Shown: positions 17,844 through 34,690, counted from the first letter of the stretch. The stretch is DNA of 64,000 nt from Oceanidesulfovibrio indonesiensis (GCF_007625075.1 NZ_QMIE01000005.1:1-64000), one strand, 5' to 3'. The notes: generated by a model not told the origin, from the letters alone. A program made the numbers and translations.

Positions 17844-19733
17844 CTAGCCCTTGCTCTTGGCTTCTTTCAGGTTTTCGAGCGCTTTCTTGGGTATCTCGAA
17901 CTTCTTCTTGGGCAACTCGTTGGGGATGATCTTGCCCCCGCCGTAGCCGCGCTCGCCCGGAGGAAGCTCGTAGTAGGGGGAGGCTTCTTCGTATTGGAGG
18001 ATGGGCAGGTGTTCGCCTTCCTTCCAGTAAGCCAGGGTGCGGTTGAGCCAGTCCTTGTCGTTGCGCTCGGGGAAGTCTTCGCGGGTGTGGGCGCCGCGGG
18101 ATTCGGTCCGCTGGAGGGCGCCGTAGGCCGTGCACTGGCAGAGCTTGATCATGCCCTGGACGCGCAGCGCCGTGGACATCTCGGGGTTGTAGCCCTTGAT
18201 GTTACCTTTGAGGGCAATCCTGTAGGAGCGCTCGTGCAGCTCGGCCAGCTTGTCCACGGCCTTTTGCAGATCCGGCCCGTTGCGGAAGATGAAGACGTTT
18301 TCCATCATGGTGGCGTGCATCTCGTCGCGTATTTCCAGCGCGCTTTCCGAGCCCTTGCGGCCGGAGACGATGTCGTCGATGCGCTCCTTGAGCTTTGCTT
18401 CGGCGTCGCGCAGGGCGGCGGTGGAGAAGTTGACGGAAGCGCCCTGGAGGAACTTGACCATCTGTTTGCCGATGTAGCGGCCTGCCACGACCGTTTCGGC
18501 CAGGGAGTTGCCGCCCAGGCGGTTGAAGCCGTGCATGTCCCAGCAGGCGGCCTCGCCGGCGGAGTACAGACCCTTCAGGCCGTATGCTGCGCCGTCGCGA
18601 TTGGTGCGCACGCCGCCCATGGAGTAGTGCTGCGTGGGCCGCACCGGAATGAGCTGCTCGATGGGGTTCACGCCCAGGAAATTGGTGCAGATGTCGTAGA
18701 CTTCCCGCAGCTTGGTGGTGATGTGCTTGACGCCCAGATGGCGGATGTCCAGCCAGAGGTGGTCACCGTAGGGTGACTTCACGCCCAGGCCCTTGCGCAT
18801 GTGCTCGGTCATGCGGCGGGAGACCACGTCGCGCGAGGCGAGCTCGGCCTTTTCGGGCTCGTAGTCGGGCATGAAGCGGTGCTCGTTCACGTCCAGCAGG
18901 GTGCCGCCGTCGCCGCGGCAGCCTTCGGTCACCAGGATGTCGGTGGGCACGGTGCCTGTGGGGTGGAACTGGACGGCTTCCATGTTGCCCATGGGGACGA
19001 GGCCGGTGTCCAGTGCGCAGATCTGGCCGCCGCCGTCGCAGATGACCGCGTTGGTGGTGGCGCTGTAGCAGCGGCCGTAGCCGCCTGTGGCGATGAGGGT
19101 TGCGGTGGCGAAGTAGGCGCGCAGTTCGCCGGTGCGCATGCAGCGGGCGATGCAGCCCAGGCAGTTCTCGCCGTCGTGGATGAGCACCTCGGCCTGGGTG
19201 CGGTCGTGGATCTGGACGCCGTATTGCAGACACTTGCTGTCCAGGGTGTTCAGCACGGATCGGCCGGTGCCGTCCGCGGTGTAGCAGGTGCGCCACTTGG
19301 CGGTGCCGCCGAATGCGCGGGCGTGGATCAGTCCGTGTTTTTCCTTTTTCTCTTCGGCTTCGAAGGGTTTGCCGCCCTTGTAGTACGTGTGGACGCCGGC
19401 CACGACGCGGTTCCACGGCACGCCCCAGTGGGCCACCTCGCGCATCACGATGGGGGCGGTGTCTGCGAAGATGCGGGCGACTTCCTGGTCGCAGCCCCAG
19501 TCCGAGCCCTTGACCGTGTCCTGGAAGTGGATGTCCGGGGAGTCGCCGTCGCCCATGATGGCGTTGCCGAGGGCAGCCTGCATGCCGCCCTGGGCAGCGG
19601 AGGAGTGCGAGCGGCGGGGGGGGACGATGGACAGACAGATGGTCTCGAAGCCCGCCATGGCGGCCTCCACGGCCACGCGCTCTCCGGCGAGGCCGGCTCC
19701 TATGCACAGGACGTCCGTATAAAATATCTGCAT
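17844..19733 (-). CDS. frdA: fumarate reductase / succinate dehydrogenase flavoprotein subunit
   Basis: A 629-residue catalytic subunit interconverting fumarate and succinate. The FAD motif GAGLAGERVAVEAAMAG lies at the N-terminus. SHSSAAQGGMQAA holds the His that binds FAD covalently. The capping domain and the substrate segment HPTGTVPTDILVTEG follow, then QHYSMGGVRTN. The length agrees with the Wolinella-type QFR family. It lies 14 bp after frdC. The direction in vivo (fumarate respiration or menaquinone-linked succinate oxidation) cannot be told from sequence. Confidence 0.96.
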   Translation of the reverse strand: MQIFYTDVLCIGAGLAGERVAVEAAMAGFETICLSIVPPRRSHSSAAQGGMQAALGNAIMGDGDSPDIHFQDTVKGSDWGCDQEVARIFADTAPIVMREVAHWGVPWNRVVAGVHTYYKGGKPFEAEEKKEKHGLIHARAFGGTAKWRTCYTADGTGRSVLNTLDSKCLQYGVQIHDRTQAEVLIHDGENCLGCIARCMRTGELRAYFATATLIATGGYGRCYSATTNAVICDGGGQICALDTGLVPMGNMEAVQFHPTGTVPTDILVTEGCRGDGGTLLDVNEHRFMPDYEPEKAELASRDVVSRRMTEHMRKGLGVKSPYGDHLWLDIRHLGVKHITTKLREVYDICTNFLGVNPIEQLIPVRPTQHYSMGGVRTNRDGAAYGLKGLYSAGEAACWDMHGFNRLGGNSLAETVVAGRYIGKQMVKFLQGASVNFSTAALRDAEAKLKERIDDIVSGRKGSESALEIRDEMHATMMENVFIFRNGPDLQKAVDKLAELHERSYRIALKGNIKGYNPEMSTALRVQGMIKLCQCTAYGALQRTESRGAHTREDFPERNDKDWLNRTLAYWKEGEHLPILQYEEASPYYELPPGERGYGGGKIIPNELPKKKFEIPKKALENLKEAKSKG

Positions 19734-19747: not shown

Positions 19748-20401
19748 TTAAACAGTGAGGAAAGAGAAGCGGGCGAGGGTGATGAGCCCGATGCAAATGA
19801 AGCCGGCCATCATCACGTACTCGGCCTTCTGGTACCAGGCGCGTCTTGCGCTGGAGATGAAGCCGTACTTGACGCCGATCCGGTAGAACCCGATGCCTAC
19901 GTGCAGTTCGGCCATGGGCAGCAGAACGAGGTAGAAAGGAAGCCAGGGGCCATCCTGAATGCGCGCGGCGCTCTTTGCGGCTGTGATGGGCAGATCGGTG
20001 AGGACCACGAACATGTGGATGGAGGCCAGCACCAGGATGACCAGTGCGGTGATCACCTGAACAAGCCACAGGGTGGTGTCTTTGTGGCGCATCATCTTGC
20101 TGTGGAGCCGGAACGCTTTCCACTCACCCTGTTCAAAGGGCATCTTGCGCGCAGCCAGAACGAAGTGCAGCAGCATGATCACGAAGATGACGGGTCCACC
20201 GACCTGCGCCATGTATGTGGCCTCGAAGAAGTCGGCCAGGGCGTTCATCAGGGCTGGGCTGATGACGACGCTGGAGACAAGGATCAAGTGCGCCCAGAGA
20301 AAAAGGATGAGCAGCACGCCGGTGGTCATCATCAAAAAGTCGAGACGACCGGAGATCTTGCTGCGTTGCGGAACATGCAATGTCATGGTGCTCGAATTCA
20401 T
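19748..20401 (-). CDS. frdC: dihaem cytochrome b subunit of fumarate reductase
   Basis: A 217-residue membrane subunit with five hydrophobic helices. Four histidines sit inside helices (LWAHLI, MLLHFVL, LASIHMFV, AELHVGIGF), matching the axial ligands of two haems b in Wolinella-type enzymes. It exchanges electrons with menaquinone and anchors FrdAB. It is the first gene of the operon. A sigma-54-like site lies about 280 bp upstream, and no clear sigma-70 promoter was recognised. Confidence 0.95.
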   Translation of the reverse strand: MNSSTMTLHVPQRSKISGRLDFLMMTTGVLLILFLWAHLILVSSVVISPALMNALADFFEATYMAQVGGPVIFVIMLLHFVLAARKMPFEQGEWKAFRLHSKMMRHKDTTLWLVQVITALVILVLASIHMFVVLTDLPITAAKSAARIQDGPWLPFYLVLLPMAELHVGIGFYRIGVKYGFISSARRAWYQKAEYVMMAGFICIGLITLARFSFLTV

Positions 20402-20676: not shown

Positions 20677-20692
20677 AGCACGTGCCGTACCA
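20677..20692 (-). promoter_or_regulatory. putative sigma-54 promoter for the frd operon
   Basis: On the minus strand the site reads TGGTACGGCACGTGCT, 14 of 16 matches to TGGCAYRNNNNTTGCW with GG and GC correctly spaced. It implies a leader of about 260 bases before frdC. The divergent neighbour encodes a sigma-54 activator. Confidence 0.42.
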
Positions 20693-20864
20693 AGCGACGA
20701 AAAATACAAGATGCAATGATTGTGACGTATTAGAGCGGGAGGAAATAAAGGCGCTCAGCCTTTTCCGGTTACACGGGAACACGCATTCCTGCCGTACAGG
20801 AATTGTTCTTGTTGCGGGGTGGACAAATCGAGGGCGGGAAAAGAGATTCAGAAATGGACGGGGA

Positions 20865-21054: not shown

Positions 21055-22482
21055 TCATAGCGAACGTGATGAAATGCCGTGCTTCTTCAGAAGAGCGTAC
21101 AAACGGGATTGCGAGAGGCCGGAGCGGCGGATGGCGTCTTTCATGTTTCCCTTTGTCGCATTCATCAGACTCTTGAGATACCGGCTCTCGGCATTGGCGC
21201 ATACTGCTTCCCGGTATGGCTGGAGTTCGGGGATTTCGTCCGGATCGAATTCAGCTTCGTCCATTTGTACAAATTGATCCTCGAAGGCCGGCGAGCTGAT
21301 GCGGTTTCGCGCCACCTTGGCCCGGATGTTTGCCGGCAGGTGTTGCGAAAAGAGGTAGGGGTCACGCTTGGAGGCAGCCAGCGCATGCTCCAGGGTATGT
21401 ATGAGTTCCCGGACATTGCCTTGCCAGTCATAGGCTTCCATTGTTTCGATGAAGTCCGTGCTGCAGGGCTTTGCCGGGGTGCCGGCGCGTTCGCAGAGGG
21501 CTTCTATGAAATGGTTGGCAAGTGGTTTGATGTCGGCGGGGCGCTCGCGCAGGGACGGCAGGTGGATGTGGATTGAACGTATGCGGTAAAGCAGATCGTT
21601 GCGGAAGAGTCCTTCCTGAGCCATGGCGTCCAGGTTCCTGTTGGTGGCGACAACGAGTCTGAAGTCGCTCTTCTGGACTTCTTTGCCGCCCAGGGAGCGC
21701 ACCGCGCGTTCCTGAAGCACGCGAAGAAAGCTCTTCTGAAGCGAGAGGGGCATTTCGCCCACTTCATCCAGAAAGAGCGTGCCTTTGTCCGCCTGGAAGA
21801 CGAGGCCCACCTGATCCTTTTCCGCGCCGGTGAACGCACCCTTCTTGTGGCCGAACAGGATGGATTCCACGATGCTTTCGGGCAGGGCTGCGCAGTCCAC
21901 GATAATGAAAGGGCCACTGGCGCGAGGGCTGTTGTCGTGGATGGCCCGGGCGAAGAGTTCCTTGCCTGTGCCGGTCTCCCCGGTGATGAGCACGTTGGAG
22001 TCGCTTTCCGCGGATTGCGCCACCAGATCCAGGGCGCGGGTCAGCGCCTGGCTGTCACCGATGATCCTTTCCCGGCGCAACGCCTTGATGGTGCTGCCCA
22101 CCTGATCATGCTGCCGCGCCCGATGGTATTCCAGGGCGCGCTTGAGGGTCAGCGAGATCTGCTGAATGCTGTGGGTCTTTTCTATGTAATCCCAGGCGCC
22201 GTTGCTGATGGCCAGCTCCGCACCTTCCGGTTCGCCCTTGCCGGTGATGATGATGACCTCCGGATTGGACGGGGTGGCTGCGAGATCTCCAAGGATGGAG
22301 AGCCCGTTGCCGTCCGGCAGGCGGACGTCCAGGAATATGATGTCGTACAAACGCGATCGGGCCATATCCAGCCCCGCAGCCAGCGTGCCGGCGCTTTCCG
22401 CTTCGCAGCCCATCCGGCGGACGGCCCGCGAAAGGGCGTAGCACATGGGTTCGTCGTCATCTATGATAAGTACGCGCGCCAT
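21055..22482 (-). CDS. NtrC-type sigma-54-dependent response regulator
   Basis: A 475-residue activator with three domains. The receiver (residues 1-120) has the acidic pair IIDDDE and a phospho-acceptor Asp in IIFLDVRLPDG. The AAA+ domain (about 140-375) has Walker A GETGTGKE, the sigma-54 contact loop GAFTGA, and LFLDEVGEMP. A Fis-type helix-turn-helix (GNMKDAIRRSGLSQSRLYALL) closes the C-terminus. It overlaps the end of the kinase gene by 22 bp, so kinase and regulator form a pair. Likely targets are the sigma-54-type promoters on either side (24997-25012 and 20677-20692), judged from position. Confidence 0.94.
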   Translation of the reverse strand: MARVLIIDDDEPMCYALSRAVRRMGCEAESAGTLAAGLDMARSRLYDIIFLDVRLPDGNGLSILGDLAATPSNPEVIIITGKGEPEGAELAISNGAWDYIEKTHSIQQISLTLKRALEYHRARQHDQVGSTIKALRRERIIGDSQALTRALDLVAQSAESDSNVLITGETGTGKELFARAIHDNSPRASGPFIIVDCAALPESIVESILFGHKKGAFTGAEKDQVGLVFQADKGTLFLDEVGEMPLSLQKSFLRVLQERAVRSLGGKEVQKSDFRLVVATNRNLDAMAQEGLFRNDLLYRIRSIHIHLPSLRERPADIKPLANHFIEALCERAGTPAKPCSTDFIETMEAYDWQGNVRELIHTLEHALAASKRDPYLFSQHLPANIRAKVARNRISSPAFEDQFVQMDEAEFDPDEIPELQPYREAVCANAESRYLKSLMNATKGNMKDAIRRSGLSQSRLYALLKKHGISSRSL

Positions 22483-24419
22483 TCTTCATTCCCTTTCGAG
22501 TTCTGCATTTCCCTCTCGAACTTGGTGGTGTCCAGCAGGCCCCGCACGGCCCGGCATATTTCGATGGTGTCGAATGGTTTTCTGAAGAAAATCGACACGC
22601 CGGCCTTTTTCAGGTCCTTTGGAACACGTTGCAGCCGGCCGTCGCCCTCGAAACCGCTGCACAGGATGACCGGCAGCTTCTGGTTGATCTGCTTGATTTC
22701 CTTGATGAGCTCCGCGCCGGTCATCTTGGGCATGAGCTGATCGGTCAGCAGGAGATCGAAGCTGTGCGGGGCTTCCATGAACATTTCCAGCGCCTTGTAG
22801 CTGTCATTGCAACTCGTTACCGTGTAGCCAAGCCGGGTGAACAGCTTGTGGAGCGACGAGAGCAGGTCTTTGTCGTCATCCACGATCAGCAGTGATTCCG
22901 TACCATGCGGCAAGTCGGGACGCTTGACATCCGGTATGTTCTCCTGGCCCTCGTCGGCGCACGGAAGCAGCACCTTGAACACCGAGCCCTTGCCCAGCGC
23001 GCTGTTCACTGTGATGGCGCCGCCGTGCATGGTGACGATGCTCTGGGTCATGGACAGTCCGAGGCCGGTGCCCCGTGATTTTCTGCGCGTGGTGTAGAAC
23101 GGCTCGAAAATGCGTTTGAGGATCACGGGCTTCATGCCCACCCCCGTATCCTGCACCGAGAGCCGGGCGTAGCTTCCCGCCTTCAGACCCATGGCGCGAG
23201 CTTCGTCGGCATCGAGCTCCACGGCGTCGAGCTCCACGGTGAGCACGGCCTTGAAGCCGCGCATGGCCTGCTCCGCGTTGGTGCACAGGTTCATTATGAC
23301 CTGGAGCAACTGGTCCGGGTCGGCTCGCACGCGGATGTCGTCCACATGTATCCGGATGCGCACGTCCACGTTGGCCGGCAGGATGGTCTGCACCAGTTCC
23401 ATGCATTCGCCGGTGACGCGGGCCAGATTGACCGTGCTGCGCGGAGTATCCGTCTTGCGGCTGAACTCCTTGATGCGCCGAACCAGGCTCTTGCCACGCT
23501 TGGCCGCCTTGTGGATGTGCTGGAGATCTTCGTATACCGGGCTGTTCTTGTCCGTATCGTACATGGCGAGCTCGGAGCAGGCGGTGATGGCGCCGAGCAC
23601 ATTGCTGAAGTCGTGCGCGATGCCGCCGGCGAAAATGCCGATGGCCTCCATCTTCTGCGCCTGCATCAACTCTTTTTCCAGTTGCCGCCATGGCTTGAGA
23701 ATGGAGTTGATCATCAGAATGCTGACCGGCAGAACCACGAACAGCAGCACGATGACCACGCCGGCGCCGACCGTGACGATGGCGCGTCGGTGTATGTGGG
23801 CGAAGCGTTGGGAAATGCGCTGCTGCTCTCTGTTGATATCGTCGATGTAGAGGCCGGACCCGAGCCAGTATTCGGTGCCGGGTATGGGATGCGCGTAGAC
23901 CAGTTTGGGAAGCAGCGTATCCTGCCCGGGTTTGTAGAAATTGTACGAGACGAATCCACCGCCGGCGAGGGCCTTTTCCGTGAGGGCCTTGATGTACCGG
24001 GTGCCTTCGTTGTCTTCCACCTCCATACGCATCTGGCCGCGGAACTCCGGAAAGAACGGATGGGTGATGTTCACGCCGCTGGTGTTGTAGACGAAGTAGT
24101 AGCCGTACTCTTCGTATCGCACCTCGTTGATGACCTCGCGCAGCTGTGTTTCCGGATCGCCTCCCTCGGCAATGGTTTCGCGCACCATCTCTCCAAGCGT
24201 GTCCGCAAGACTGATAACTGCTGCTTTGAGTGTCCGCTGATGCCCGGTCAGCATCATCTCGCGGGCGGCGATCTGCGTCTCCTTTTGCGATTTGTTGATG
24301 TAATAGCTGTAGACCACGCTGATGGCCGCGGCGAACAGCGACAGAAAAAGCAGCAAGAGGCCGACCCGACTGATTATCGTGTAGCTGCGGTGAGTGAATA
24401 GGGTGCGAAGATTGAACAT
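22461..24419 (-). CDS. hybrid sensor histidine kinase with Cache sensor
   Basis: A 652-residue membrane kinase. One helix (residues 15-38) leads to an extracytoplasmic single-Cache domain (about 40-205; YYFVYNTSGVNITHPFFPEF is typical), and a second helix lies near 215-240. HisKA has its phospho-acceptor His in GGIAHDFSNVLGA (near 265). The ATPase has DTGVGM and GTGLGLSM. A C-terminal receiver (about 515-635, Asp in SFDLLLTDQLMPKM) makes it a hybrid kinase. Cache domains usually bind small organic acids. The start faces the cluster 1 promoter across a 700-bp divergent region. Confidence 0.94.
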   Translation of the reverse strand: MFNLRTLFTHRSYTIISRVGLLLLFLSLFAAAISVVYSYYINKSQKETQIAAREMMLTGHQRTLKAAVISLADTLGEMVRETIAEGGDPETQLREVINEVRYEEYGYYFVYNTSGVNITHPFFPEFRGQMRMEVEDNEGTRYIKALTEKALAGGGFVSYNFYKPGQDTLLPKLVYAHPIPGTEYWLGSGLYIDDINREQQRISQRFAHIHRRAIVTVGAGVVIVLLFVVLPVSILMINSILKPWRQLEKELMQAQKMEAIGIFAGGIAHDFSNVLGAITACSELAMYDTDKNSPVYEDLQHIHKAAKRGKSLVRRIKEFSRKTDTPRSTVNLARVTGECMELVQTILPANVDVRIRIHVDDIRVRADPDQLLQVIMNLCTNAEQAMRGFKAVLTVELDAVELDADEARAMGLKAGSYARLSVQDTGVGMKPVILKRIFEPFYTTRRKSRGTGLGLSMTQSIVTMHGGAITVNSALGKGSVFKVLLPCADEGQENIPDVKRPDLPHGTESLLIVDDDKDLLSSLHKLFTRLGYTVTSCNDSYKALEMFMEAPHSFDLLLTDQLMPKMTGAELIKEIKQINQKLPVILCSGFEGDGRLQRVPKDLKKAGVSIFFRKPFDTIEICRAVRGLLDTTKFEREMQNSKGNEEWRAYLS

Positions 24420-24922
24420 ATTGTAGGAGATACCGGCATGTGTTGTGTCACAAGAGACATGATGCTGAAAGGAGCTCCTGTCAAATTATGTCGGCGAAGC
24501 CAAGCGACATTGCGTCGGAGACATGCTTCGGGCGGCTCGAATTTGAAACGCCATGTTGGAAGCACAATTCGCGCCAACCTGCACATGAGTGGAAAATGTT
24601 AATATAATAATATGTTGAGTTCAGGATTCTTCTGAAGCAGGAGTGTTCCGAAAAGGCTTTTCCTGCCGAACAGTAAAGGTGTCTGCACCGCACCATTTCG
24701 TCTTGTTTCTCCACAGACAGGTGACCGGCACAAGGCACCGTTCATTTAGCTGATGTCGGAGTTACCCCGGGAGAACGATTCCTGCAACTCGATAGAGCGG
24801 AATCTCAAACACAACCACTTTGAATACAATGCTTTATTGTATGAGAAGAAAGATGGCCCATGCAATAATTCTGTGAAAAATAACGTATTCCCGGCAGATA
24901 GGAAACTGTTCATCTACGGCAA

Positions 24923-24996: not shown

Positions 24997-25012
24997 TGGC
25001 ATGTCCCGTGCA
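24997..25012 (+). promoter_or_regulatory. sigma-54 promoter for HdrABC-FlxABCD cluster 1
   Basis: TGGCATGTCCCGTGCA matches TGGCAYRNNNNTTGCW at every specified position except one (G for T at position 12), with exact GG-GC spacing. It predicts a start near 25024 and a leader of about 100 bases before the first gene. Confidence 0.7.
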
Positions 25013-25126: not shown

Positions 25127-27400
25127 ATGTCGAATACCATTCTCGAAAAGGAGCAGCTCATCCCGGATCAGACCAGCAAACTGGTGATCGACGCGCCGGA
25201 AATAGCGGCCAAGGCCGAGCCCGGCAACTTCGTGATCCTGCGCGTCGATCCCCGGGGCGAGCGCATCCCTCTGACAATAGCCGACACGGACAAGAAAAAG
25301 GGCACTATCACCATCGTCTACCTGGTGTTGGGCAAGACTACAGCAATGCTGGAGGAGCTCAAAGAGGGCGACACGATCCTCGATCTCTGCGGCCCGCTGG
25401 GCAAAGCCACGCACATAGAGAAAGAAGGCACTGTCATCTGTGTGGGCGGCGGCACCGGCATCGCTGCCATGCACCACATCGCCAAAGGTCACCACGAGGC
25501 AGGAAACAGGGTCGTGGCAATCATCGGCGCACGCACCAGGGATCTTCTGCTTTTCGAGGACGAACTCATGAAATTTGCCGACGAGGTCCTCGTCTCCACG
25601 GACGACGGCAGCTACGGCCACAAGGGGCTCGTTACGGAGCTGCTGGAGCAGCGTCTCCAGGAAGACGAAAGCGTGTTCGAGGTCGTGGCCGTGGGACCTG
25701 TGCCCATGATGGCGGCCGTGGCCCGCACCACCGAGAAGTACGACGTGAAGACCACCGTGTCCCTGAACTCCATCATGGTCGACGGCATCGGCATGTGCGG
25801 CGCCTGCCGCGTGACCGTGGGCGGCGAAACCAGATTCGCCTGCGTGGACGGCCCGGAGTTCGATGGTCACCAGGTCGATTTTGTGGAATTGAGCAACCGG
25901 CTCCGGTATTTCAAGGAGCTGGAGTGCGTGTCCTACGACGAGTTCAAGGAATGCAGATGCGCGGAAAAAGAAGGAAAAAAAAAGAAGGCGAAGAAACTCT
26001 CCATTCCGCGCGTACCCATGCCGCATCAGCCGGCCAGTCAGCGTATCACCAACTTCGACGAAGTCGCCCTGGGCTACAGCATGGACATGGCCGTAAAAGA
26101 GGCCCAGCGCTGTATGCAGTGCAAGAAGCCCAAATGCGTGCAGGGCTGTCCGGTGGAGGTGAACATTCCGGACTTCATATCCGCGCTCGTGGAGCGTGAT
26201 GTGGAAAAGGCTTACAAGGTCATCAAAGCCACCAACAGCCTGCCGGCGGTCTGCGGCCGCGTCTGCCCGCAGGAGAGCCAGTGCGAAGGGGCATGCATCC
26301 TGGGGATCAAGGACGAGCCCGTGGCCATCGGCCGTCTGGAACGCTTCGTGGCCGACGAGTTCTTTCACCGCGACGCCTGCGACCTCATCTCGGACAAGCC
26401 GGAGTGCCCGCTCATCGACGAGGAAAAAAAGGTGGCCTGCATCGGCTCCGGCCCGTCATCCCTCACTGTGGCCGGCTACATGGCCTCCCGAGGCTGCAAG
26501 GTTACGGTCTTCGAAGCCCTGCACGAGCTGGGCGGCGTGCTGGTCTACGGTATTCCCGAGTTCCGTCTGCCCAAAAGCAAGATCGTGGGCAAGGAAGTGA
26601 ACGCCCTCAGCGATCTGCAGGTGGACTTCAAGCTGAACGCCGTGGCCGGCAAAACCTTCAGTATTCAGGAGCTGTTCGACCAGGGGTACAAATCCGTGTT
26701 CATCGGAGTGGGTGCAGGACTGCCCAAGTTCCTGAACATTCCTGGCGAGAACCTGAGCGGCGTGTTCTCGGCCAACGAATATCTCACTCGGGTCAACCTG
26801 GGCAGGGCCTACAGCTTCCCGGACTATGACACCCCCATCGTGCGCGGCAAGAAGGTGACCGTGTACGGCGGCGGCAACGTGGCCATGGACGCAGCGCGCA
26901 CCGCAGTCCGCCTGGGTGCGGAGAGCGTGCACATCGTCTACCGGCGCACGCAGGACGCCATGCCCGCGCGGCTGGAGGAAGTGGAGCATGCCGTGGAAGA
27001 GGGCGTGATCATGGAGTGTCTGGCCGCTCCCCTGGAGTTCCTGCCCGGCGAGGACGGCAACCTGGGCGCGGTTCGCTTGCAGCGCATGGAACTAGGCAAG
27101 CCCGATGAATCCGGCCGGCGCAGCCCTAAACCCATTGAGGGCGACATCTACGAACTGCCCACAGATATCGCGGTCATCGCCGTGGGAACGCGCTCCAACC
27201 CGGTGCTGCTGGAGAACGAGCCCGCCCTGGAATTGAATAAATGGGGGTATATCGAGGTTGACGAAGAGACAGGCGAGACTAGTATTCCTAATGTATACGC
27301 CGGCGGCGATATCGTCACCGGCGCAGCCACGGTGATCCTGGCAATGGGCGCCGGACGCACCGCGGCCAAGGAAATGGCCCGACGTCTGGGCTGCGAGTAG
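25127..27400 (+). CDS. NfnAB-like fusion: PyrK/FNR-type domain plus GltD-type oxidoreductase
   Basis: A 757-residue fusion. The N-terminal 280 residues resemble the PyrK/NfnA FAD and NAD-binding module with a [2Fe-2S] site (CGACRV near 224, distal Cys in RFACVDG). The C-terminal 470 residues resemble NfnB/GltD, with Fe-S cysteines (CMQCKKPKCVQGCPVEVNIP near 330; VCGRVCP; CEGAC), an FAD motif (IGSGPSSLTVAGYMA, near 440) and an NADPH motif (GGGNVAMDAAR, near 583). Separate NfnA and NfnB catalyse electron-bifurcating NADH-dependent ferredoxin:NADP+ oxidoreduction. Such fusions are also annotated as sulfide dehydrogenase or glutamate synthase. It heads cluster 1, taking the place alcohol dehydrogenase has in cluster 2. 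The start has GGGAGA upstream. Confidence 0.88.
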   Translation: MSNTILEKEQLIPDQTSKLVIDAPEIAAKAEPGNFVILRVDPRGERIPLTIADTDKKKGTITIVYLVLGKTTAMLEELKEGDTILDLCGPLGKATHIEKEGTVICVGGGTGIAAMHHIAKGHHEAGNRVVAIIGARTRDLLLFEDELMKFADEVLVSTDDGSYGHKGLVTELLEQRLQEDESVFEVVAVGPVPMMAAVARTTEKYDVKTTVSLNSIMVDGIGMCGACRVTVGGETRFACVDGPEFDGHQVDFVELSNRLRYFKELECVSYDEFKECRCAEKEGKKKKAKKLSIPRVPMPHQPASQRITNFDEVALGYSMDMAVKEAQRCMQCKKPKCVQGCPVEVNIPDFISALVERDVEKAYKVIKATNSLPAVCGRVCPQESQCEGACILGIKDEPVAIGRLERFVADEFFHRDACDLISDKPECPLIDEEKKVACIGSGPSSLTVAGYMASRGCKVTVFEALHELGGVLVYGIPEFRLPKSKIVGKEVNALSDLQVDFKLNAVAGKTFSIQELFDQGYKSVFIGVGAGLPKFLNIPGENLSGVFSANEYLTRVNLGRAYSFPDYDTPIVRGKKVTVYGGGNVAMDAARTAVRLGAESVHIVYRRTQDAMPARLEEVEHAVEEGVIMECLAAPLEFLPGEDGNLGAVRLQRMELGKPDESGRRSPKPIEGDIYELPTDIAVIAVGTRSNPVLLENEPALELNKWGYIEVDEETGETSIPNVYAGGDIVTGAATVILAMGAGRTAAKEMARRLGCE

Positions 27401-27491
27401 GCACCATTCCAGGCAACCTCCCGCAGCAATCCGTACGACAACCAACGCCGGCGCGGAGATCCGCCCCCTTGAGTCGGCTCATGAGTGTGCA

Positions 27492-28052
27492 ATGACTACC
27501 ACGACGTCTTTAGACCTCAGTACCATAGACCACGGCTTCATCGAGGACGTGCAGAAAGCTTCCGGACAGAGGCCGGGACGATGCATCCAGTGCGGCAAGT
27601 GCACGGCCGGGTGCCCGGCGCAGTTCGTTTACGATATTCCGGTCAACGCCATCATGCATGCCGTGCAGCAGGGACTGAAGGAGAAAGTGCTCACGAGCCG
27701 CTCCATCTGGCTGTGCGCCATGTGCCAGACCTGCTCGGCGCGATGCCCCATGGAGATCGACGTGGCCGCGGTCATGGAGACACTGCGCTCCATGGCCTGG
27801 GCCGAAGGCTACGCCAACAGGGAGAAGACCAAGCCGTTCTTCGAGGCGTTCCTCAGCTCTGTCCAGAAAAGTGGACGCGTGCACGAGATGGGCATGATGG
27901 TCTCCTACATGCTCAAGACAGGCCGCTTCACCACGGATATCGACATCGCGCCCAAGGCGGCCGGCAAGCTCTCTCTGCTGCCGCACACGATCAGGAACAA
28001 GGCCGCGGTGGATTCGATCATCTCGCGCTACAAAAGGAAGAGGGGGCTCTGA
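27492..28052 (+). CDS. hdrC: HdrC-like iron-sulfur protein, cluster 1
   Basis: A 186-residue soluble electron carrier with two [4Fe-4S] motifs, CIQCGKCTAGCP (near 31) and CAMCQTCSARCP (near 76). It passes electrons between HdrA and HdrB in heterodisulfide reductase-like complexes. It lies 91 bp after the NfnAB-like gene. The stop overlaps the hdrB start (TGATG). Its paralogue at 45579-46136 has the same layout. Confidence 0.93.
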   Translation: MTTTTSLDLSTIDHGFIEDVQKASGQRPGRCIQCGKCTAGCPAQFVYDIPVNAIMHAVQQGLKEKVLTSRSIWLCAMCQTCSARCPMEIDVAAVMETLRSMAWAEGYANREKTKPFFEAFLSSVQKSGRVHEMGMMVSYMLKTGRFTTDIDIAPKAAGKLSLLPHTIRNKAAVDSIISRYKRKRGL

Positions 28053-28960
28053 TGCAGACCCCGGCGTATGCATATTACCCGGGTTGTTCCCAGACGGGCA
28101 CGGCCAGGGAATACGATCTGTCGGTGCGCAGCGTGTTCAAGGCGCTGGGCATGGAGCTTGCCGAGGTGGACGACTGGAGCTGCTGCGGCTCCACGCCGGC
28201 CCATTCTCTGGATACCGGTCTGATGGCGGCGCTGGCCGCCCGCAACCTGAAGCAGGTCCAGAAAATGGGACTGGAGCAGGCGCTCACCCCATGCCCCAGC
28301 TGTCTGGGTGCGCTCAGAACCGCCTCCAGGCATTTGGTCCATCCGGAAAAGCGCGCCGCCATGAACGAACTGCTGGACGAATCCCTCGAAGAGGATGTGC
28401 CGAGTCGCTCCATACTCCAGGCGCTGCTGGAGGACTACGGTCTGGACAAGCTCCGTGAGCAGGTCGTCGTGCCGCTGAAAGGGCTGAAGGCCGTGCCGTA
28501 CTACGGCTGCCTCATGACCAGGCCCGCCGACCTCATGCGCTTTGACAATCCGGAGAATCCCACTTCCATGGATGAAACGCTCAAAATTCTGGGCGCGACG
28601 GTCCCGGAATTTCCCTTCAAGGTCGAGTGCTGCGGCGCCAGTCTCGGCGTGCCCAGGCAGGAAATGGTCCTGCGTCTGTCCCACAACATTCTGTCCATGG
28701 CCGCGCAGGTGGGCGGCAACGCCGTGGTGGTGGCCTGCCCGCTGTGCCACCAGAACCTCGACCTGCGGCAGTCGCAGATCAACAGGGCCAACAAGAGCAA
28801 TCACAATATGCCGGTGCTGTACATAACCCAGGCCATAGGCCTGGCGCTTGGGCTCATGCCCGAAGAACTGGGTCTCAACAAGCACGCCGTGAGCGTGCGC
28901 GGTCTCCTGGATACGATATCCGGAGACGCCGCTGTGGAAGAAAAGGGGGCGGCGTCATGA
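28052..28960 (+). CDS. hdrB: HdrB-like subunit with two CCG domains, cluster 1
   Basis: A 302-residue catalytic subunit of the heterodisulfide reductase-like complex. It has two complete cysteine-rich (CCG) domains: YYPGC, WSCCGSTPAH and CPSC in the first, and YYGC, ECCGAS and CPLC in the second. Both noncubane cluster sites therefore look intact. In sulfate reducers, which lack methanogenic thiols, the proposed disulfide partner is DsrC (family knowledge). The start at 28052 overlaps the hdrC stop and the end overlaps the hdrA start (ATGA). Confidence 0.94.
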   Translation: MQTPAYAYYPGCSQTGTAREYDLSVRSVFKALGMELAEVDDWSCCGSTPAHSLDTGLMAALAARNLKQVQKMGLEQALTPCPSCLGALRTASRHLVHPEKRAAMNELLDESLEEDVPSRSILQALLEDYGLDKLREQVVVPLKGLKAVPYYGCLMTRPADLMRFDNPENPTSMDETLKILGATVPEFPFKVECCGASLGVPRQEMVLRLSHNILSMAAQVGGNAVVVACPLCHQNLDLRQSQINRANKSNHNMPVLYITQAIGLALGLMPEELGLNKHAVSVRGLLDTISGDAAVEEKGAAS

Positions 28961-30924
28961 AAATAGGCGTGTTCGTCTGCCTATGCGGCAGCAACATTGC
29001 GGCCACCGTGGATACGGAGCGCGTGGCAGAGATCGCCCGGAGCTATCCGGACGTGGTCTTCTCCAAGGCCGAGATGTACGCCTGCTCCGAGCCTGGTCAG
29101 GAAGCCATTCGCGAAGCCATCGTCGAGAAAGGTCTCGAAGGCGTGGTCGTGGCCTCGTGTTCCCCGCGCATGCATGAGACCACATTCCGCCGCGCCGTGG
29201 AACGCGCCGGCGTGAACCGCTACATGTTCGAGATGGCCAACATTCGCGAGCACGTCTCCTGGGTGAGCCTGGACAGGGAGGTGAACACCCGCAAGGCGGC
29301 TGAACTGGTGCGCGCCGCGGTGGAGAAGCTGCGCCTGAACAGGCATCTCACGCCGTCGAAGTTCGAGATCAACAAGCGCGTGATGGTCATCGGCGGGGGC
29401 GTGGCAGGCATCCAGGCCGCGCTGGACATGGCCGACGGCGGACTGAAAGTCGTCATGGTGGAGCGCGAGCCCTCCGTGGGCGGCAAGATGGCCAAGCTGG
29501 ACAAGACCTTCCCCACCGTGGATTGCTCGGCCTGTATTCTGGGCCCCAAGATGGTGGACCTGGCGCAGCATCCCAACATAACGCTCCATGCGTTTTCCGA
29601 AATAGAAGACGTGGCCGGGTATGTGGGCAACTTCGCCGTCACCGTGCGCAGGAAGACGCCCTACGTGGACTGGGAAAGGTGCACGGGTTGCGGCCTGTGC
29701 ATGGAAAAGTGCCCGAGCAGGAAGAGTCCGGACGTGTTCAACGAAGGGCTCAAGCCCACCACGTCCATCAACATTCCGTTCCCTCAGGCCATTCCCAAGA
29801 AGGCGACGATCAACCCCGATACCTGCATCATGCTCACCAAGGGCAAATGCGGCTCCTGCGCCAAAATCTGCCCCACAGGCGCGGTGGACTTCGAAAAGCA
29901 GGACGAACTCGTCACCGAGGAAGTGGGCGCCATCATCGCGGCCACGGGATACGACGTCTTCGACCACGCCAAGTACGAGGAATACGGCGGCGGCCGCATT
30001 CCGGACGTCATCACCTCCATGCAGTATGAGCGCATGCTCAACGCCTCCGGTCCCACATCCGGCCACGTGAAGCGCCCCTCGGACGGCAAGGAGCCCAAGA
30101 AGGTCGTCTTCGTGCAGTGCGTGGGTTCGCGCGATCCGTCAAAAGGAAGGCCGTACTGCTCCGGCTTCTGCTGCATGTATACGGCCAAGCAGGCCATTCT
30201 CACCAAGGACCATATCCCGGACGCCGAGGTCTATACCTTTTACATCGACGTACGCGCTCCTTCCAAGATGTACGAGGAGTTCTACAACCGCGCCCGCGAC
30301 GAGTACGGAGTGCGCTACCTGCGCGGTCGGCCCTCCAGGATATACCAGGACGGCGACAAGGTCGTGGTCCGTAGTGTGGACACTCTGCTGCAGGCGCAGG
30401 TGGAGGTGGAGGCCGATCTCGTGGTCCTCGCCGTGGGCGGTGAGCACTCCAGGGGAGCGAGCGAGTTGGCCGAAAAGCTGCGCATCTCCGCCGACCAGAA
30501 CGGCTTCTTCATGGAAAGCCATCCCAAGCTGCGGCCCGTGGAGACCAACACGGCCGGTGTGTTTCTGGCCGGCGCCTGTCAGGGGCTCAAGGACATTCCC
30601 ACCGCCGTTGCCCAGGGCACTGCCGCCGCGGCCAAAGCGCTGGTGCTTCTGTCCAGGGATATGCTGGAGGCTGATCCCCAGGTGGCCCGGGTCAACCAGT
30701 CCCGGTGCATCGGTTGCGCCAAGTGCGTGGGCGTGTGTCCGTTCCAGGCCATACGCATGGGCAAGGATCGTTGGGGCAACCCAAAGGCTGAGGTCGTGGA
30801 AACCATGTGCCAGGGCTGCGGCGTATGCAACGTGGCTTGCATGGACAAGGCCATTCAGCTGGATCACTTTACCGACGACCAGATCCTCGCGGAGGTCAAC
30901 GCATTATGTCGGGAATGGACGTGA
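28957..30924 (+). CDS. hdrA: HdrA-like flavin-bifurcating subunit, cluster 1
   Basis: A 655-residue flavoprotein core. An N-terminal domain with cysteines (VCLCGSN, CSEPGQ, ASCSPRMH) precedes the FAD-binding Rossmann motif (VIGGGVAGIQAALDMA near 145) and inserted ferredoxin clusters (CTGCGLCMEKCP near 243; KCGSCAKICP near 298). Two C-terminal [4Fe-4S] sites follow: CIGCAKCVGVCP (near 583) and CQGCGVCNVACM (near 618, with Met where Pro is usual). HdrA is the proposed site of flavin-based electron bifurcation. The coupling with hdrB and flxD by overlapping ends argues for one complex. Confidence 0.95.
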   Translation: MKIGVFVCLCGSNIAATVDTERVAEIARSYPDVVFSKAEMYACSEPGQEAIREAIVEKGLEGVVVASCSPRMHETTFRRAVERAGVNRYMFEMANIREHVSWVSLDREVNTRKAAELVRAAVEKLRLNRHLTPSKFEINKRVMVIGGGVAGIQAALDMADGGLKVVMVEREPSVGGKMAKLDKTFPTVDCSACILGPKMVDLAQHPNITLHAFSEIEDVAGYVGNFAVTVRRKTPYVDWERCTGCGLCMEKCPSRKSPDVFNEGLKPTTSINIPFPQAIPKKATINPDTCIMLTKGKCGSCAKICPTGAVDFEKQDELVTEEVGAIIAATGYDVFDHAKYEEYGGGRIPDVITSMQYERMLNASGPTSGHVKRPSDGKEPKKVVFVQCVGSRDPSKGRPYCSGFCCMYTAKQAILTKDHIPDAEVYTFYIDVRAPSKMYEEFYNRARDEYGVRYLRGRPSRIYQDGDKVVVRSVDTLLQAQVEVEADLVVLAVGGEHSRGASELAEKLRISADQNGFFMESHPKLRPVETNTAGVFLAGACQGLKDIPTAVAQGTAAAAKALVLLSRDMLEADPQVARVNQSRCIGCAKCVGVCPFQAIRMGKDRWGNPKAEVVETMCQGCGVCNVACMDKAIQLDHFTDDQILAEVNALCREWT

Positions 30925-31379
30925 AAGAACTGCGGATCATAGGATTCCTGTGCAACTGGTGCTCCTACGGCGGGGCCGACAGTGCTGGCGTGGCCCGCTA
31001 CAAGCAACCTACGGACATGCGCATCATCCGTCTGCCCTGTACGGGCCGCATGGATCCGTTGTTCGTGCTCAAGGCCTTGCTCGGCGGGGCGGACGGCGTA
31101 CTCGTTTCTGGCTGCCATCCGTTTGATTGCCACTACACCTCGGGTAATTTTTACGCCCGCCGCCGGCTCCAGGTGCTCAAGAGCTACCTGCCGGTGCTGG
31201 GCATCCACGAAGACCGCTTCGAGTACACCTGGGTCTCGGCCTCGGAAGCCGCCAAGTGGCAGTCCGTGGTCACGGCCTTTACCGATAGAATCCACGAACT
31301 GGGCCCCGCGCCCCGGCTGCTCGAACTTGAGGATATGCCCCTGCGCTTCAAGGAGGGTATGGATATATGGCCGAGCTGA
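30906..31379 (+). CDS. flxD: FlxD (MvhD-like) [2Fe-2S] protein, cluster 1
   Basis: A 157-residue protein of the MvhD family. Cysteines in LCNWCSYGGAD, LPCTGRMDP and GCHPFDC are the expected cluster ligands. MvhD-type proteins link the input module (here FlxABC) to HdrA. The start at 30906 was preferred over 30915 because GGAGG lies 10 bp upstream. It overlaps hdrA by 19 bp and flxC by 13 bp. Confidence 0.92.
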   Translation: MSGMDVKELRIIGFLCNWCSYGGADSAGVARYKQPTDMRIIRLPCTGRMDPLFVLKALLGGADGVLVSGCHPFDCHYTSGNFYARRRLQVLKSYLPVLGIHEDRFEYTWVSASEAAKWQSVVTAFTDRIHELGPAPRLLELEDMPLRFKEGMDIWPS

Positions 31380-32326
31380 ACGAACTCAGGGAAGCAGTCG
31401 CCAAGGTGCTTCCGGACGTCAAGCATGTCATCGGCTGGCAACGCGGCTATCATGCCGTGCGTTCATCGCCGCTGTTCATACGAAACCAAGAGGACCTGGA
31501 TAAGCTCATCTGGGACCGCACGTGCTACCAGAACCTCGCCTCGTACCTCACCAGCACAAGGGGCGAGCGGGTCGGCATTATCGTCAAGGGCTGCGACAGT
31601 CGTTCGGTGAATCAGTTGCTCCAGGAGCAACTCATCAATCGCGAGGATGTTGTTGTCATTGGCGTGCCCTGCACAGGCGTCATCAGTCTGGACAAGATAC
31701 GCGCGAAGTTTCCCATCAACAGGGTGAAGGACATGCAGGTGGAAGGCGACGAGCTGACCATCGCCACGCGCGACGGCGAGGAGCACAAATTGAACCGTTG
31801 GGACGTGGCGCCGGACAAATGCCTTGCCTGCAAGTATCCGAATCCCCTCATCTTCGATACGCATGTTGGTGAACCAATCGAGACGTGGGAACCCAAGCAG
31901 GGCCTTTACGCGCGGGACGAGGAATTCGACCAGAAGAGCCTCGATGAACGTTTCGAGTTCTGGCGGCGGGAGATGAGCCGCTGCATTCGCTGCTACGCCT
32001 GCCGCAACGCCTGCCCAATGTGCGTGTGCCGCGACCACTGCATCGCTGAATCCCGGCAGCCGCACTACCAGTCGCAGGAAGCGGACGTACGCGAGAAGTT
32101 CTTCTTCCAGCTCATCCACGCCATGCATCTGGCCGGCCGCTGCACCGAGTGCGGCGAATGCGAGCGCGCCTGCCCCATGGACATTCCGGTCCTCCTGTTC
32201 AAGACCAGGATGGGCAAGGTCGTGAAGGACCTCTTCGATTACGAAGCCGGCGTCGACCAGACCGCAGTCCCACCCCTGCTCACCTTCCAGGCGGAAGAAA
32301 GCAACATCGAAGAAAAGGAGTGGTGA
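31367..32326 (+). CDS. flxC: FlxC-like iron-sulfur protein, cluster 1
   Basis: A 319-residue protein of the FlxABCD NADH-oxidising module. The N-terminal half has segments seen in F420-dehydrogenase beta-like proteins (IVKGCDSRSV, IGVPCTGVI, DKCLACKYP). The C-terminal half has an unusually dense Cys cluster (CIRCYACRNACPMCVC, near 206) and a second [4Fe-4S] motif (CTECGECERACP, near 259). It passes electrons from FlxA/FlxB towards FlxD. The stop overlaps the flxB start. The assignment as FlxC rather than FlxB rests on gene order and recalled family content. Confidence 0.88.
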   Translation: MAELNELREAVAKVLPDVKHVIGWQRGYHAVRSSPLFIRNQEDLDKLIWDRTCYQNLASYLTSTRGERVGIIVKGCDSRSVNQLLQEQLINREDVVVIGVPCTGVISLDKIRAKFPINRVKDMQVEGDELTIATRDGEEHKLNRWDVAPDKCLACKYPNPLIFDTHVGEPIETWEPKQGLYARDEEFDQKSLDERFEFWRREMSRCIRCYACRNACPMCVCRDHCIAESRQPHYQSQEADVREKFFFQLIHAMHLAGRCTECGECERACPMDIPVLLFKTRMGKVVKDLFDYEAGVDQTAVPPLLTFQAEESNIEEKEW

Positions 32327-33402
32327 TGTCTCAGGCCCGCTTCCTGCCATACGATGCGGTCACGGACTGGCTCAGAAAAATCGCAGAAACCATGCGGGTC
32401 ACGGCGCCTGTGCGCGAGGGCAACTCTGTGGTGTTCCGCGATTTCGATCCCGAAGAGCCGCTCGTGCTGGGCCACCAGTCCGCGGCAAGTCCCAAGTCCG
32501 TGGTCTTTCCACAACTGGAGTACCTTTTCCGCTACAAGACGGATCGCACTGCGGATGAAAACGGCGTGCGCCAGATAACGCTGGAGCCGATCTACCCGGA
32601 CGAAGACGTCTTCGTCTTCGGCGCCAACCCCTGCGGCGCCAGAGGGCTGACCACCCTGGACCCCGTGTTCATCAACGACGAGTACGTGGACCCGTATTAC
32701 AAGGCCCGGCGTGAGCGCAGCATCATTGCATCCATCGTGTGCACGCTGCCGGGAGATGCATGCTTCTGCCATTGGGTAGGGGGGAATCCGAACGATCCCG
32801 TGGGGTCGGACCTAGTGCTCACTCCCATCGAAGGTGGCTACCTGGTCCGGGCCCATTCGGAAAAAGGCGAGAAACTGGCGGCCGGTCTGGACAAGGCCGA
32901 CGCTCGGGAGGAGCAGGCGGCACAGCAGGTTGAGGACGCGGTGCTTGCGACTCTGGACCCGCCGCCAGATCTCACGGACTGTCCGGACGTGATGGAGAAT
33001 GTCTTCGACGACATGGAGCTGTGGGAGCAGGTCTCGGACAAGTGCATTTACTGTGGCGCATGCACATACTACTGCCCGACCTGCTACTGTTTCAACATCA
33101 CGGACGAGGCGTCCGGCATCGCCGGCGAGCGCATCCGGAGTTGGGATTCGTGCATGTTCCCGACCTATACGCGCGAAGCCAGCGGCCACAACCCCCGGCC
33201 CACCAAAGCCCACCGCTTTCGCAACAGGATTCTGCACAAGTTCTCGTACTATCCCAAGCTTTATAACCGCGTGTTCTCCTGCACAGGCTGCGGCCGCTGC
33301 ATCCGCATGTGCCCCACCACCGTGGATATCCGCGACGCGGTGCTGCGTGTGAAAGAAGCGGCCACCAAGGATGAGTCTGCCAAGGAAGTGTCTGATGGAT
33401 AA
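32326..33402 (+). CDS. flxB: FlxB-like iron-sulfur protein, cluster 1
   Basis: A 358-residue protein similar to anaerobic sulfite reductase subunit A and hydrogenase beta-like Fe-S proteins. It has a Cys pair in NPCGARG, CFCHWVG, then two [4Fe-4S] sites (CIYCGACTYYCPTC near 239 and CTGCGRCIRMCP near 319). Electron transfer inside the Flx module is the expected role. The start at 32326 has AAAAGGAG upstream and overlaps the flxC stop; in-frame sequence back to 32149 lies in the flxC gene. Confidence 0.88.
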   Translation: MSQARFLPYDAVTDWLRKIAETMRVTAPVREGNSVVFRDFDPEEPLVLGHQSAASPKSVVFPQLEYLFRYKTDRTADENGVRQITLEPIYPDEDVFVFGANPCGARGLTTLDPVFINDEYVDPYYKARRERSIIASIVCTLPGDACFCHWVGGNPNDPVGSDLVLTPIEGGYLVRAHSEKGEKLAAGLDKADAREEQAAQQVEDAVLATLDPPPDLTDCPDVMENVFDDMELWEQVSDKCIYCGACTYYCPTCYCFNITDEASGIAGERIRSWDSCMFPTYTREASGHNPRPTKAHRFRNRILHKFSYYPKLYNRVFSCTGCGRCIRMCPTTVDIRDAVLRVKEAATKDESAKEVSDG

Positions 33403-34231
33403 GAAGATCAACCCCTATCTGCCGGACCTCGCCACCATCCGGGAGGTCATCGAAGAAACGCCGAACATCAAGACCTTTCGCGTTACCCTGGACGATCCCG
33501 GTGTAATGCAGAACTTCACCTTCCAGCCCGGTCAGGTCGCGCAGCTCTCGGTTTTCGGCACGGGCGAGGCCACATTCGTCATCAACTCCCCGCCCACCCG
33601 CATGGACTACCTCCAGTTCAGCGTGATGAAGGCCGGCGAAGTGACCACCAGGCTGCACACCCTGAGCGCCGGGGACCGCGTCGGCGTCCGCGCTCCTTTG
33701 GGCAACGCCTTCCCCGTGGAAGCCATGCGCGGCAAGAACCTTTTGTTCATCGGCGGCGGCATCGGCATGGCGCCGTTGCGCACGCTGTTGCTCTACGCCC
33801 TGGACAACCGCGACGATTTCGACCGGATCAAGCTCTACTACGGCGCGCGTTCGCCCGTGGACTTCTGCTACAAACAGGACATCGAAGAGTGGAAATCGCG
33901 GCCGGACATGGATGTGGTCCAGGCCATCGACAACCCGGCCGAGGGCTGGGAAGGACGGGTGGGGCTGCTGCCGAACGTGCTGCTTGAAGACGCGCCCGAA
34001 GCCGCTGATACCGTAGCCATTCTGTGCGGTCCGCCCATCATGATCAAGTTCACTCTCCAGGCGCTGGAGAAGCTGAATTTCCCCCACGAGGACATCGTGA
34101 CCACGCTGGAAAAGCGCATGAAGTGCGGCATCGGCATCTGCGGTCGCTGCAACGTGGGCGTGAAGTACGTGTGCAGGGACGGCCCGGTGTTCACCATGGC
34201 CGAGCTTGATGAGTTGCCGAACGAACTGTGA
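33395..34231 (+). CDS. flxA: FlxA-like FAD/NAD(P)H oxidoreductase, cluster 1
   Basis: A 278-residue flavoprotein of the ferredoxin-NADP reductase superfamily, close to AsrB. The FAD-binding barrel includes RxxS-type NSPPTRMDYLQF. The NAD-binding motif is GGGIGMAPLRTLLL (near 120). A C-terminal [2Fe-2S] site is formed by CGIGICGRC with Cys in YVCRDG. It is the NADH entry point of the complex. The start at 33395 has AAGGA at 8 bp; an ATG at 33371 is also open. Last gene of cluster 1, followed by a strong hairpin. Confidence 0.92.
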   Translation: MDKKINPYLPDLATIREVIEETPNIKTFRVTLDDPGVMQNFTFQPGQVAQLSVFGTGEATFVINSPPTRMDYLQFSVMKAGEVTTRLHTLSAGDRVGVRAPLGNAFPVEAMRGKNLLFIGGGIGMAPLRTLLLYALDNRDDFDRIKLYYGARSPVDFCYKQDIEEWKSRPDMDVVQAIDNPAEGWEGRVGLLPNVLLEDAPEAADTVAILCGPPIMIKFTLQALEKLNFPHEDIVTTLEKRMKCGIGICGRCNVGVKYVCRDGPVFTMAELDELPNEL

Positions 34232-34690
34232 TTACTCAAGCAGGTTGTGTTCCGAGGGTGCTGTCCTTCAGGCTCTCTGGCAGGGAGCCCAATTCCCCGG
34301 GTTGCCAGATGCTTTTCTCGTGGAGAAAGCCCAAGTTCGTCAAAGAAGAGCATTCATAAGCAAAGGCGCCGCCGTGAACGTTTGGACCGGGAGTCACGGT
34401 CCTGGTTCGCGGCGGCGCCTTCCTTCTCCCTCTCCTACCGCTCGAATCCCGTCTGTGGGCGATGCGGGCCGGGCCTTCGCAACCGTAATCCGAGGAGGCG
34501 CGGTGTCAGTCGTGCGCGGGAGTCGGAGCCGCAGAATCCCTTGCGGAGTCTAGTCTTCCAGTACGCGGCGGCCCTCCCTGGCGCGTGGCTTCGTCAACCT
34601 GCGCCGGCACAAGCCCCGACTGCGCCGGGTGCGGTTTTCAGAACGTGCGCCGAGCCGCCTGCGTGCTGGAACGCCAGAGTGCGCGGGGAG
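34232..34690. other. intergenic region between convergent cluster 1 and the glutaredoxin gene
   Basis: Apart from the terminator at 34363-34421, nothing with coding character was recognised in this 459-bp stretch. Frames here overlap one another and show no family features. Confidence 0.6.
34363..34421 (+). terminator. long double hairpin terminating cluster 1
   Basis: A 17-base stem (AAGGCGCCGCCGTGAAC with GTTCGCGGCGGCGCCTT, one mismatch) encloses a second perfect hairpin (GGACCG / CGGTCC). A pyrimidine-rich tail (CCTTCTCCCTCTCC) follows. It stands 130 bp after flxA, between convergent transcription units. Confidence 0.75.

Follow-up and report, generated by a model that had tools for sequence, protein, structure and literature searches.

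In Oceanidesulfovibrio indonesiensis, an hdrCBA-flxDCBA gene cluster is headed by a gene for an NfnAB-like fusion protein, in the place that alcohol dehydrogenase takes in a second such cluster nearby, and we wanted to understand what this pairing is for. The analysis covered a stretch of 64,000 nucleotides (NZ_QMIE01000005.1:1-64000), referred to here as the window. An earlier note on this DNA had read the pairing as a redox hub joining NADPH, NADH, ferredoxin, and the Hdr disulfide route under one sigma-54 promoter.

Fused Nfn and the hdr-flx cluster that it heads

The ORF at 25127-27400 (plus strand; 757 amino acids) has exactly the boundaries and the single-chain PyrK/GltD-type architecture that the earlier note had given it, and it was identified as a fused NfnA-NfnB transhydrogenase from Pfam/NCBIfam domains, solved NfnAB relatives, and an AlphaFold model with structural matches. 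In domain and profile searches, residues 1-280 are NfnA/PyrK-like (DHODB_Fe-S_bind, NAD_binding_1, and PRK06222) and residues 295-757 are NfnB/GltD-like (Fer4_20, Pyr_redox_2, and TIGR01316, which scores 540 bits and has a cut-off of 471.75); the top full-length model is that of the fusion (PRK12778/NF009414), which matches residues 3-754 with 1014.7 bits, below its equivalog cut-off of 1103. The solved NfnAB enzymes of Pyrococcus furiosus and Thermotoga maritima cover each half end to end with the cofactor residues retained (NfnA half, 5jca_S at 9e-91; NfnB half, 4ylf_B at 1.5e-155 and 5jca_L at 6e-144). D219, C224, C227, and C239 align with 5jca_S and 4ylf_A and do not vary in an alignment of 17 fused homologues, in which the cysteines of the two NfnB [4Fe-4S] motifs (329/332/337/341 and 376/380/386/390) are also invariant. 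The Fe-S, FAD, and nucleotide motifs are as expected, except that the b-FAD motif does not read GxGPxG. This Rossmann motif (NfnB residues 440-445, window positions 26444-26461) is GSGPSS; the terminal serine (GxGPxS) is common to nearly all Desulfovibrionales NfnB proteins examined, with glycine in P. furiosus and T. maritima. Since this difference and the remaining ones are order-wide or scattered, we rejected the idea that the active site of the fused Nfn is specially altered.

The AlphaFold model, built from the fused-homologue alignment, has a pLDDT of 76.9, is weak near the linker and in the Fe-S region, and matches 5jca_S with a Z of 36.8 (274 aligned) and 4ylf_B with a Z of 35.2 (448 aligned). 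The gene neighborhood and the single chain could be taken to mean that fused Nfn is physically joined with Hdr-Flx in one super-complex, in which NADH or electrons would pass directly between flavin sites. However, the linker between the halves is short and poorly ordered, no extra interaction domain is present, both halves resemble NfnAB chains already known, and the gene order varies between genomes (nfn precedes hdr-flx, follows it, or is missing), and we regard such a complex as very improbable.

The same one-chain NfnA-NfnB order, at similar length, is found in the Pattern B Nfn proteins of Clostridium autoethanogenum and Bacteroidetes; a review lists this pattern for Firmicutes, Bacteroidetes, and Fusobacteria (PMC6405883), whereas the fused proteins found here belong to Desulfovibrionaceae and form two distinct groups in the NfnB tree. 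In this tree, the window copy clusters with the fused copies that have the two-component system HK1/RR1 described below (97), and a wider group (99) joins it to Halodesulfovibrio nfnAB. Not every single-frame hit is a true fusion: a stop lies between the halves in L048-L050, L132, L133, L136, L167, and others, so the counts of "fused" members in the tree groups are too high. In another genome (G004, L158:8757-9968), a fused nfn that is 86% identical to the window copy has ~340 internal residues missing in frame, with the Fe-S regions gone, a loss that may be genuine or may stem from an assembly error. The O. indonesiensis genome also carries a second Nfn, an ordinary two-gene NfnAB on contig C12 that is ~70-77% identical to the fusion.

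Domain and profile models confirmed the order nfn-hdrC-hdrB-hdrA-flxD-flxC-flxB-flxA, all on the plus strand, and each hdr-flx gene overlaps or almost abuts the next one. The FlxABCD-HdrABC set is complete. It consists of hdrC1 (27492-28052; HdrC models and two CxxCxxCxxxC motifs for two 4Fe-4S clusters), hdrB1 (28052-28960; HdrB models, two CCG domains, and CCG and CxxC motifs), hdrA1 (28957-30924; HdrA2/HdrA models and FAD and Fe-S motifs), the MvhD/FlpD-like flxD1 (30921-31379; PF02662, 161 bits), flxC1 (31367-32326; Fe-S and FrhB_FdhB_C domains, with homologues in hdr-flx clusters), flxB1 (32326-33402; Fer4_22, sulfhydrogenase beta-like), and flxA1, which is NAD- and [2Fe-2S]-binding (33395-34231, start possibly at 33371; NAD_binding_1 and DHODB_Fe-S_bind).

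A promoter or terminator between nfn and hdrC would weaken the link that the earlier note had drawn. Site scans of this 91-bp gap (27401-27491, plus strand) found no terminator-like and no sigma-54 site, and its folding gave a z of -0.9 against shuffled sequence; a weak sigma-70-like match at 27258-27285 was discounted because it lies within conserved nfn coding sequence. A terminator-like hairpin with a 17-pair stem (z -6.3) follows flxA1 at 34363-34421 (plus strand). With a conserved sigma-54 promoter at the head and a terminator at the end only, nfn-hdr-flx is a predicted operon whose genes would be co-transcribed; no clear ribosome-binding site was found before hdrC, which counts as a caution against the one-operon reading. 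We rejected the idea that cluster 1 is foreign DNA because its GC and GC3 are in line with those of its neighbors. The nearest relative of its hdr-flx genes is a copy in genome G176 (FlxC 70% and HdrA 80%), where a search detected no Nfn above the threshold used, indicating that Nfn is not obligatory for this hdr-flx type.

The contrast that had been drawn with an ethanol-linked cluster 2 was borne out. This comparison cluster (39272-51617, minus strand) has the order HK2-RR2-adh-hdrCBA-flxDCBA, with a two-component pair and an Fe-ADH, and is of the type known from D. vulgaris Hildenborough, where adh-hdrCBA-flxDCBA (DVU2405 onwards) is controlled by DVU2394 (PMC3333781, PMC4641369); RR2 carries the same GSFTGA variant as DVU2394. 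Cluster 1 shares with the D. vulgaris cluster the hdr-flx set placed after an NADH-making enzyme and a sigma-54 response regulator, but its head gene is Nfn instead of alcohol dehydrogenase, and its regulator, RR1, is a different one located beside frd-fum-mae. In Desulfovibrio, genes for alcohol and aldehyde dehydrogenases are the described neighbors of hdr-flox (PMC4287179).

A fumarate/malate operon and a probable common regulator

To the left of nfn, on the minus strand, lie frdC for fumarate reductase cytochrome b (19748-20401), frdA (17844-19733; PRK08626 over cut-off), frdB (17039-17827; PRK13552 over cut-off), fumA for fumarase alpha (16213-17052; PRK06246 over cut-off), fumB for fumarase beta (15668-16213; TIGR00723 over cut-off within the ORF 15668-16858), a malic enzyme gene (14320-15630; PF00390/PF03949 and a match to subfamily PRK12861, from whose name NADP use is presumed), and a gene for a DASS/CitMHS-type transporter, probably for dicarboxylate uptake (12832-14229; CitMHS, with TIGR00785 just under cut-off). 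Judged by its predicted gene products, frdCAB-fumAB-malic enzyme-DASS is an operon for fumarate/malate uptake and oxidation. Next to it, also on the minus strand and back to back with nfn, are the genes for HK1, an sCache hybrid histidine kinase conserved beside fused nfn (22461-24419), and RR1, a sigma-54-dependent response regulator with a GAFTGA motif (21055-22482). The redox-hub reading of the earlier note was sound in linking NADPH, NADH, ferredoxin, and the Hdr disulfide route but had missed this operon and the two-component system. A hub confined to nfn and hdr-flx was rejected as too narrow once the frd-fum-mae operon, which is kept in relatives, had been found, and the operon together with the two-component system suggests the purpose that the hub serves.

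The sigma-54 promoter that had been proposed ahead of nfn is there: a -24/-12 element (TGGCATGTCCCGTGCA, 24997-25012, plus strand) has one mismatch to the consensus and is kept in relatives. Each of the six distinct relative loci that we scanned has a one-mismatch element ahead of nfn, although the surrounding sequence has mostly diverged; the loci were G275 (same genus), L039, L040, and G086 (Nitratidesulfovibrio group), G017 (whose entries L042 and L126 are one record), and G273, and they represent four genus groups, that of the window included. Alignment of the nfn upstream regions also yielded a palindrome, TTCCTGC-N3-GCAGGAA, and a scan then located copies upstream of frdC in the window and in relatives. 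The copy upstream of nfn (24660-24676, also in relatives) has one mismatch to TTCCTGYNNNRCAGGAA, with a weaker copy at 24888-24904, and the copy upstream of frdC (20786-20802, same place in relatives) is the only exact TTCCTGYNNNRCAGGAA in the genome. The 4.29-Mb genome holds this exact site at 20786 and seven one-mismatch sites, that at 24660 among them (8 in total), and the reversed control pattern has 2 sites in the same genome. The palindrome, rare in the genome and shared by the frdC and nfn upstream regions, is probably the site of RR1, as predicted from these positions. The best sigma-54 candidate found for frdC (20677-20692, minus strand) has two mismatches and is not convincing.

The neighborhood in relatives and in other genera

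Fused nfn has HK1-RR1 and frd or fum genes as its neighbors in G275, the genome of the same genus, and in L039, L040, L120/G086, L121/G273, and L042/G017; in another part of the clade (G294, G337, G062, and G064), frd/fum genes were not seen beside fused nfn in the stretches read. The order in G275 is nfn, HK1 RR1 frdCAB fumAB mae DASS, followed by an adh-type hdr-flx cluster. Downstream of fused nfn, hdr-flx is absent in G275, G086, G017, and G273 over the 7-13 kb read (the sequence in L039 and L040 is too short to count), and strong hairpins follow nfn in G275 (z -5.1). The exact order of fused nfn followed by hdr-flx was therefore found only in the window genome among the fused-nfn relatives readable downstream, and hdr-flx was rejected as a conserved partner of fused nfn; it is the fumarate/malate genes that are its shared neighbors in relatives. 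The hdr-flx genes behind nfn look like a later addition in the window genome. Compared with G275 (L119, L143, and L159), window positions 12832-51617 have the blocks nfn-HK1-RR1-frd..DASS and HK2..hdr-flx2..nadB in swapped order, which indicates that a rearrangement went along with the acquisition of hdr-flx behind nfn. G275 itself has two near-identical adh-type hdr-flx copies (L142 and L143), of which that at C1:1583000-1602900 has no adh in front.

The same facts could mean that a rearrangement placed an unrelated hdr-flx cluster behind nfn by accident, to be expressed from its own promoter or by mere read-through. The pairing with fused nfn in the window genome alone, the same-genus genome with nfn but without hdr-flx and with reordered blocks, and the resemblance of cluster 1 to the G176 copy that lacks nfn all fit such an accident. 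The gap between nfn and hdrC, without promoter or terminator signal, argues against it, as do other lineages, which unite the same neighbors using different hdr-flx copies, and we consider an accidental pairing quite unlikely.

The conservation of this neighborhood, on which the link depends, was found in part: the exact arrangement with fused nfn occurs in one genome, but split nfnAB adjoins hdr-flx in other genera, so the link is recurrent and not unique. Split nfnAB adjoins hdr-flx in 7 of 7 Fundidesulfovibrio-like genomes, in 3 of 3 Halodesulfovibrio-like genomes checked and a Halodesulfovibrio MAG, and in G227. The locus is frdCAB-fumAB-nfnAB-hdrCBA-flxDCBA in the Fundidesulfovibrio-like genomes (order read in L084, L140, and L181; nfn-flx linkage in the 7 genomes by coordinates), frdCAB-fumAB-mae-(DASS)-nfnAB-hdr-flx in the Halodesulfovibrio-like ones, and frdCAB-fumAB-hdr-flx-nfnAB in G227. 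In the first two groups, nfnAB directly precedes hdr-flx as in the window, within a frd-fum or frd-fum-mae-DASS locus on one strand; they differ from the window in that nfnA and nfnB are separate genes and in that hdr-flx comes from other lineages. Further, frdCAB-fumAB-hdr-flx stands without nfn in G212/G216/G226 and in G075, and G328 has frdCAB-fumAB-nfnAB-mae. Dicarboxylate loci elsewhere in Desulfovibrionales thus include split nfnAB plus hdr-flx in three other genera and hdr-flx alone in two further genera. A GltD-like protein of ~705 amino acids, ~42% identical to NfnB and without an NfnA half, lies a few kilobases from fum-mae genes in several genera (L174 in G235, L175 in G292, and L176 in G090) and, by coordinates, is also close to fumA in G064 and in G285. 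This protein may be a further redox partner of the fumarate/malate locus.

Co-location was surveyed in 78 genomes of 48 genera. Nfn and FumA lie within 15 kb of each other in 8 genera (0.5 expected), FlxC and FumA within 15 kb in 6 (0.48 expected), and Nfn and FlxC within 8 kb in 4 (0.25 expected); when the window genome, which was chosen for the pairing, is left out, the last figure becomes 3 genera against 0.25 expected, with P ~0.002. All these figures take genera as independent units in a Poisson formula and use start-to-start distances on broken contigs. In the HdrA tree, a single clade of the hdr-flx copies from dicarboxylate loci was rejected (AU p 2.4e-7), as was a clade of the window and Fundidesulfovibrio copies (AU p 2.6e-8), and in the FlxC tree the Halodesulfovibrio-type FlxC is set apart by a very long branch. 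We therefore rejected one ancestral dicarboxylate-hdr-flx locus: for the classic HdrA type on the AU test, and for the Halodesulfovibrio/G227/G075 FlxC type on its distance. According to these trees, the Hdr-Flx of dicarboxylate loci is of several different lineages of origin. A third, divergent Hdr-Flx type with two tandem HdrA-like stretches was seen in L059, L134, L135, L162, L166, L167, and L173; its FlxC is 32-35% identical to both window copies, and L166 has an hdrC-like stretch downstream of flxA. The Halodesulfovibrio hdr-flx type is likewise divergent, with two HdrA-like stretches in tandem, unlike cluster 1 of the window.

A proposed electron relay from dicarboxylates to DsrC

With a probability of roughly 60%, we read the locus as a dicarboxylate-linked relay in which electrons would run from malic enzyme NADPH through Nfn to NADH and ferredoxin, and from there through Hdr-Flx to DsrC and sulfite reduction. 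HK1/RR1 would sense a signal, probably a C4-dicarboxylate, and RR1, bound at the TTCCTGC-N3-GCAGGAA sites, would switch on two divergent units, frdCAB-fumAB-malic enzyme-DASS and, from its sigma-54 promoter, nfn-hdrCBA-flxDCBA. Malic enzyme would convert malate (or hydrated fumarate) to pyruvate and NADPH, and fused Nfn would use 2 NADPH, NAD+, and oxidized ferredoxin to give NADH and reduced ferredoxin. FlxA would accept the NADH, and Flx-Hdr would split the electrons between ferredoxin and the disulfide substrate of HdrB, most likely DsrC, leading to sulfite reduction. Nfn could take the place of alcohol dehydrogenase because both would supply NADH to Flx. We observe the anatomy, the conserved promoter and palindrome, and the recurrent independent co-location; for O. 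indonesiensis, we infer the co-transcription, the signal, the coenzyme of malic enzyme, the direction, and the partners.

The Nfn reaction, the malate/fumarate phenotype of NfnAB-2, and the proposed Hdr-Flx reaction are carried over from published relatives. Nfn is described as catalyzing 2 NADPH + Fd + NAD+ <-> 2 NADP+ + reduced Fd + NADH + H+ (quoted in PMC4215793). In D. alaskensis G20, NfnAB-2 (Dde_1250:1251) matters when malate or fumarate is used with sulfate, and the authors proposed that it converts the NADPH of malate oxidation into reduced ferredoxin and NADH (PMC4215793); the growth rate of nfnAB-2 mutants is ~22% (malate) and ~10% (fumarate) of that of the wild type (PMC4916218). 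Hdr/flox was proposed to pass NADH electrons to ferredoxin and to a disulfide carrier such as DsrC (cited in PMC4215793), and a report of DsrC interacting with FlxABCD-HdrABC is listed among the references of PMC10553843 (Ferreira et al. 2023). As in the window, G20 NfnAB-2 is by gene number close to malic enzyme (Dde_1253) and fumarase (Dde_1254:1255); unlike in the window, it consists of two separate genes, Hdr/flox-1 (Dde_1207:1213) and Hdr/flox-2 are by gene number elsewhere, and an operon of NfnAB-2 with hdr-flx is not described (PMC4215793).

The identical genes would also serve the opposite direction, and the relay could run mainly in reverse, in fermentation: Hdr-Flx would re-oxidize reduced ferredoxin and thiols to make NADH, Nfn would draw on NADH plus ferredoxin to form NADPH, and the electrons would end up in succinate by way of malic enzyme, fumarase, and Frd. 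Consistent with this, fumarate reductase and fumarase matter in pyruvate fermentation by G20, as do Hdr/flox-1 and Rnf according to one earlier study (both PMC4215793), and the frd genes belong to the same predicted regulated set in the window. However, the G20 Nfn-2 mutants grew poorly on malate and fumarate but showed no such defect on pyruvate (PMC4916218), and a mainly reversed relay, although a serious alternative, seems unlikely to us.

Taken singly, fused Nfn, Hdr-Flx, and the control of hdr-flx by sigma-54 are already known, and cooperation of Nfn with Hdr-Flx was proposed for D. alaskensis. Among the papers searched, we found no report of nfn beside hdr-flx or of hdr-flx in a fumarate/malate locus. 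We tentatively suggest that the fumarate/malate locus of Desulfovibrionales may be an evolutionary docking site, to which Nfn and separate Hdr-Flx lineages could have been added independently to give a dedicated NADPH-to-DsrC conduit, which in the window would be one sigma-54 operon that includes a fused Nfn. The part that NAD(P)H plays in the energetics of Desulfovibrio was described by Price et al. (2014) as a long-standing mystery; their mutant fitness data led them to propose that Nfn and Hdr/flox channel NAD(P)H electrons into sulfate reduction (PMC4215793). Malic enzyme, Nfn, and Hdr-Flx encoded next to each other, with a regulator that they probably share, provide genomic support for such a series connection of Nfn and Hdr-Flx, which is also supported by the repeated independent assembly of the same gene set in other genera.
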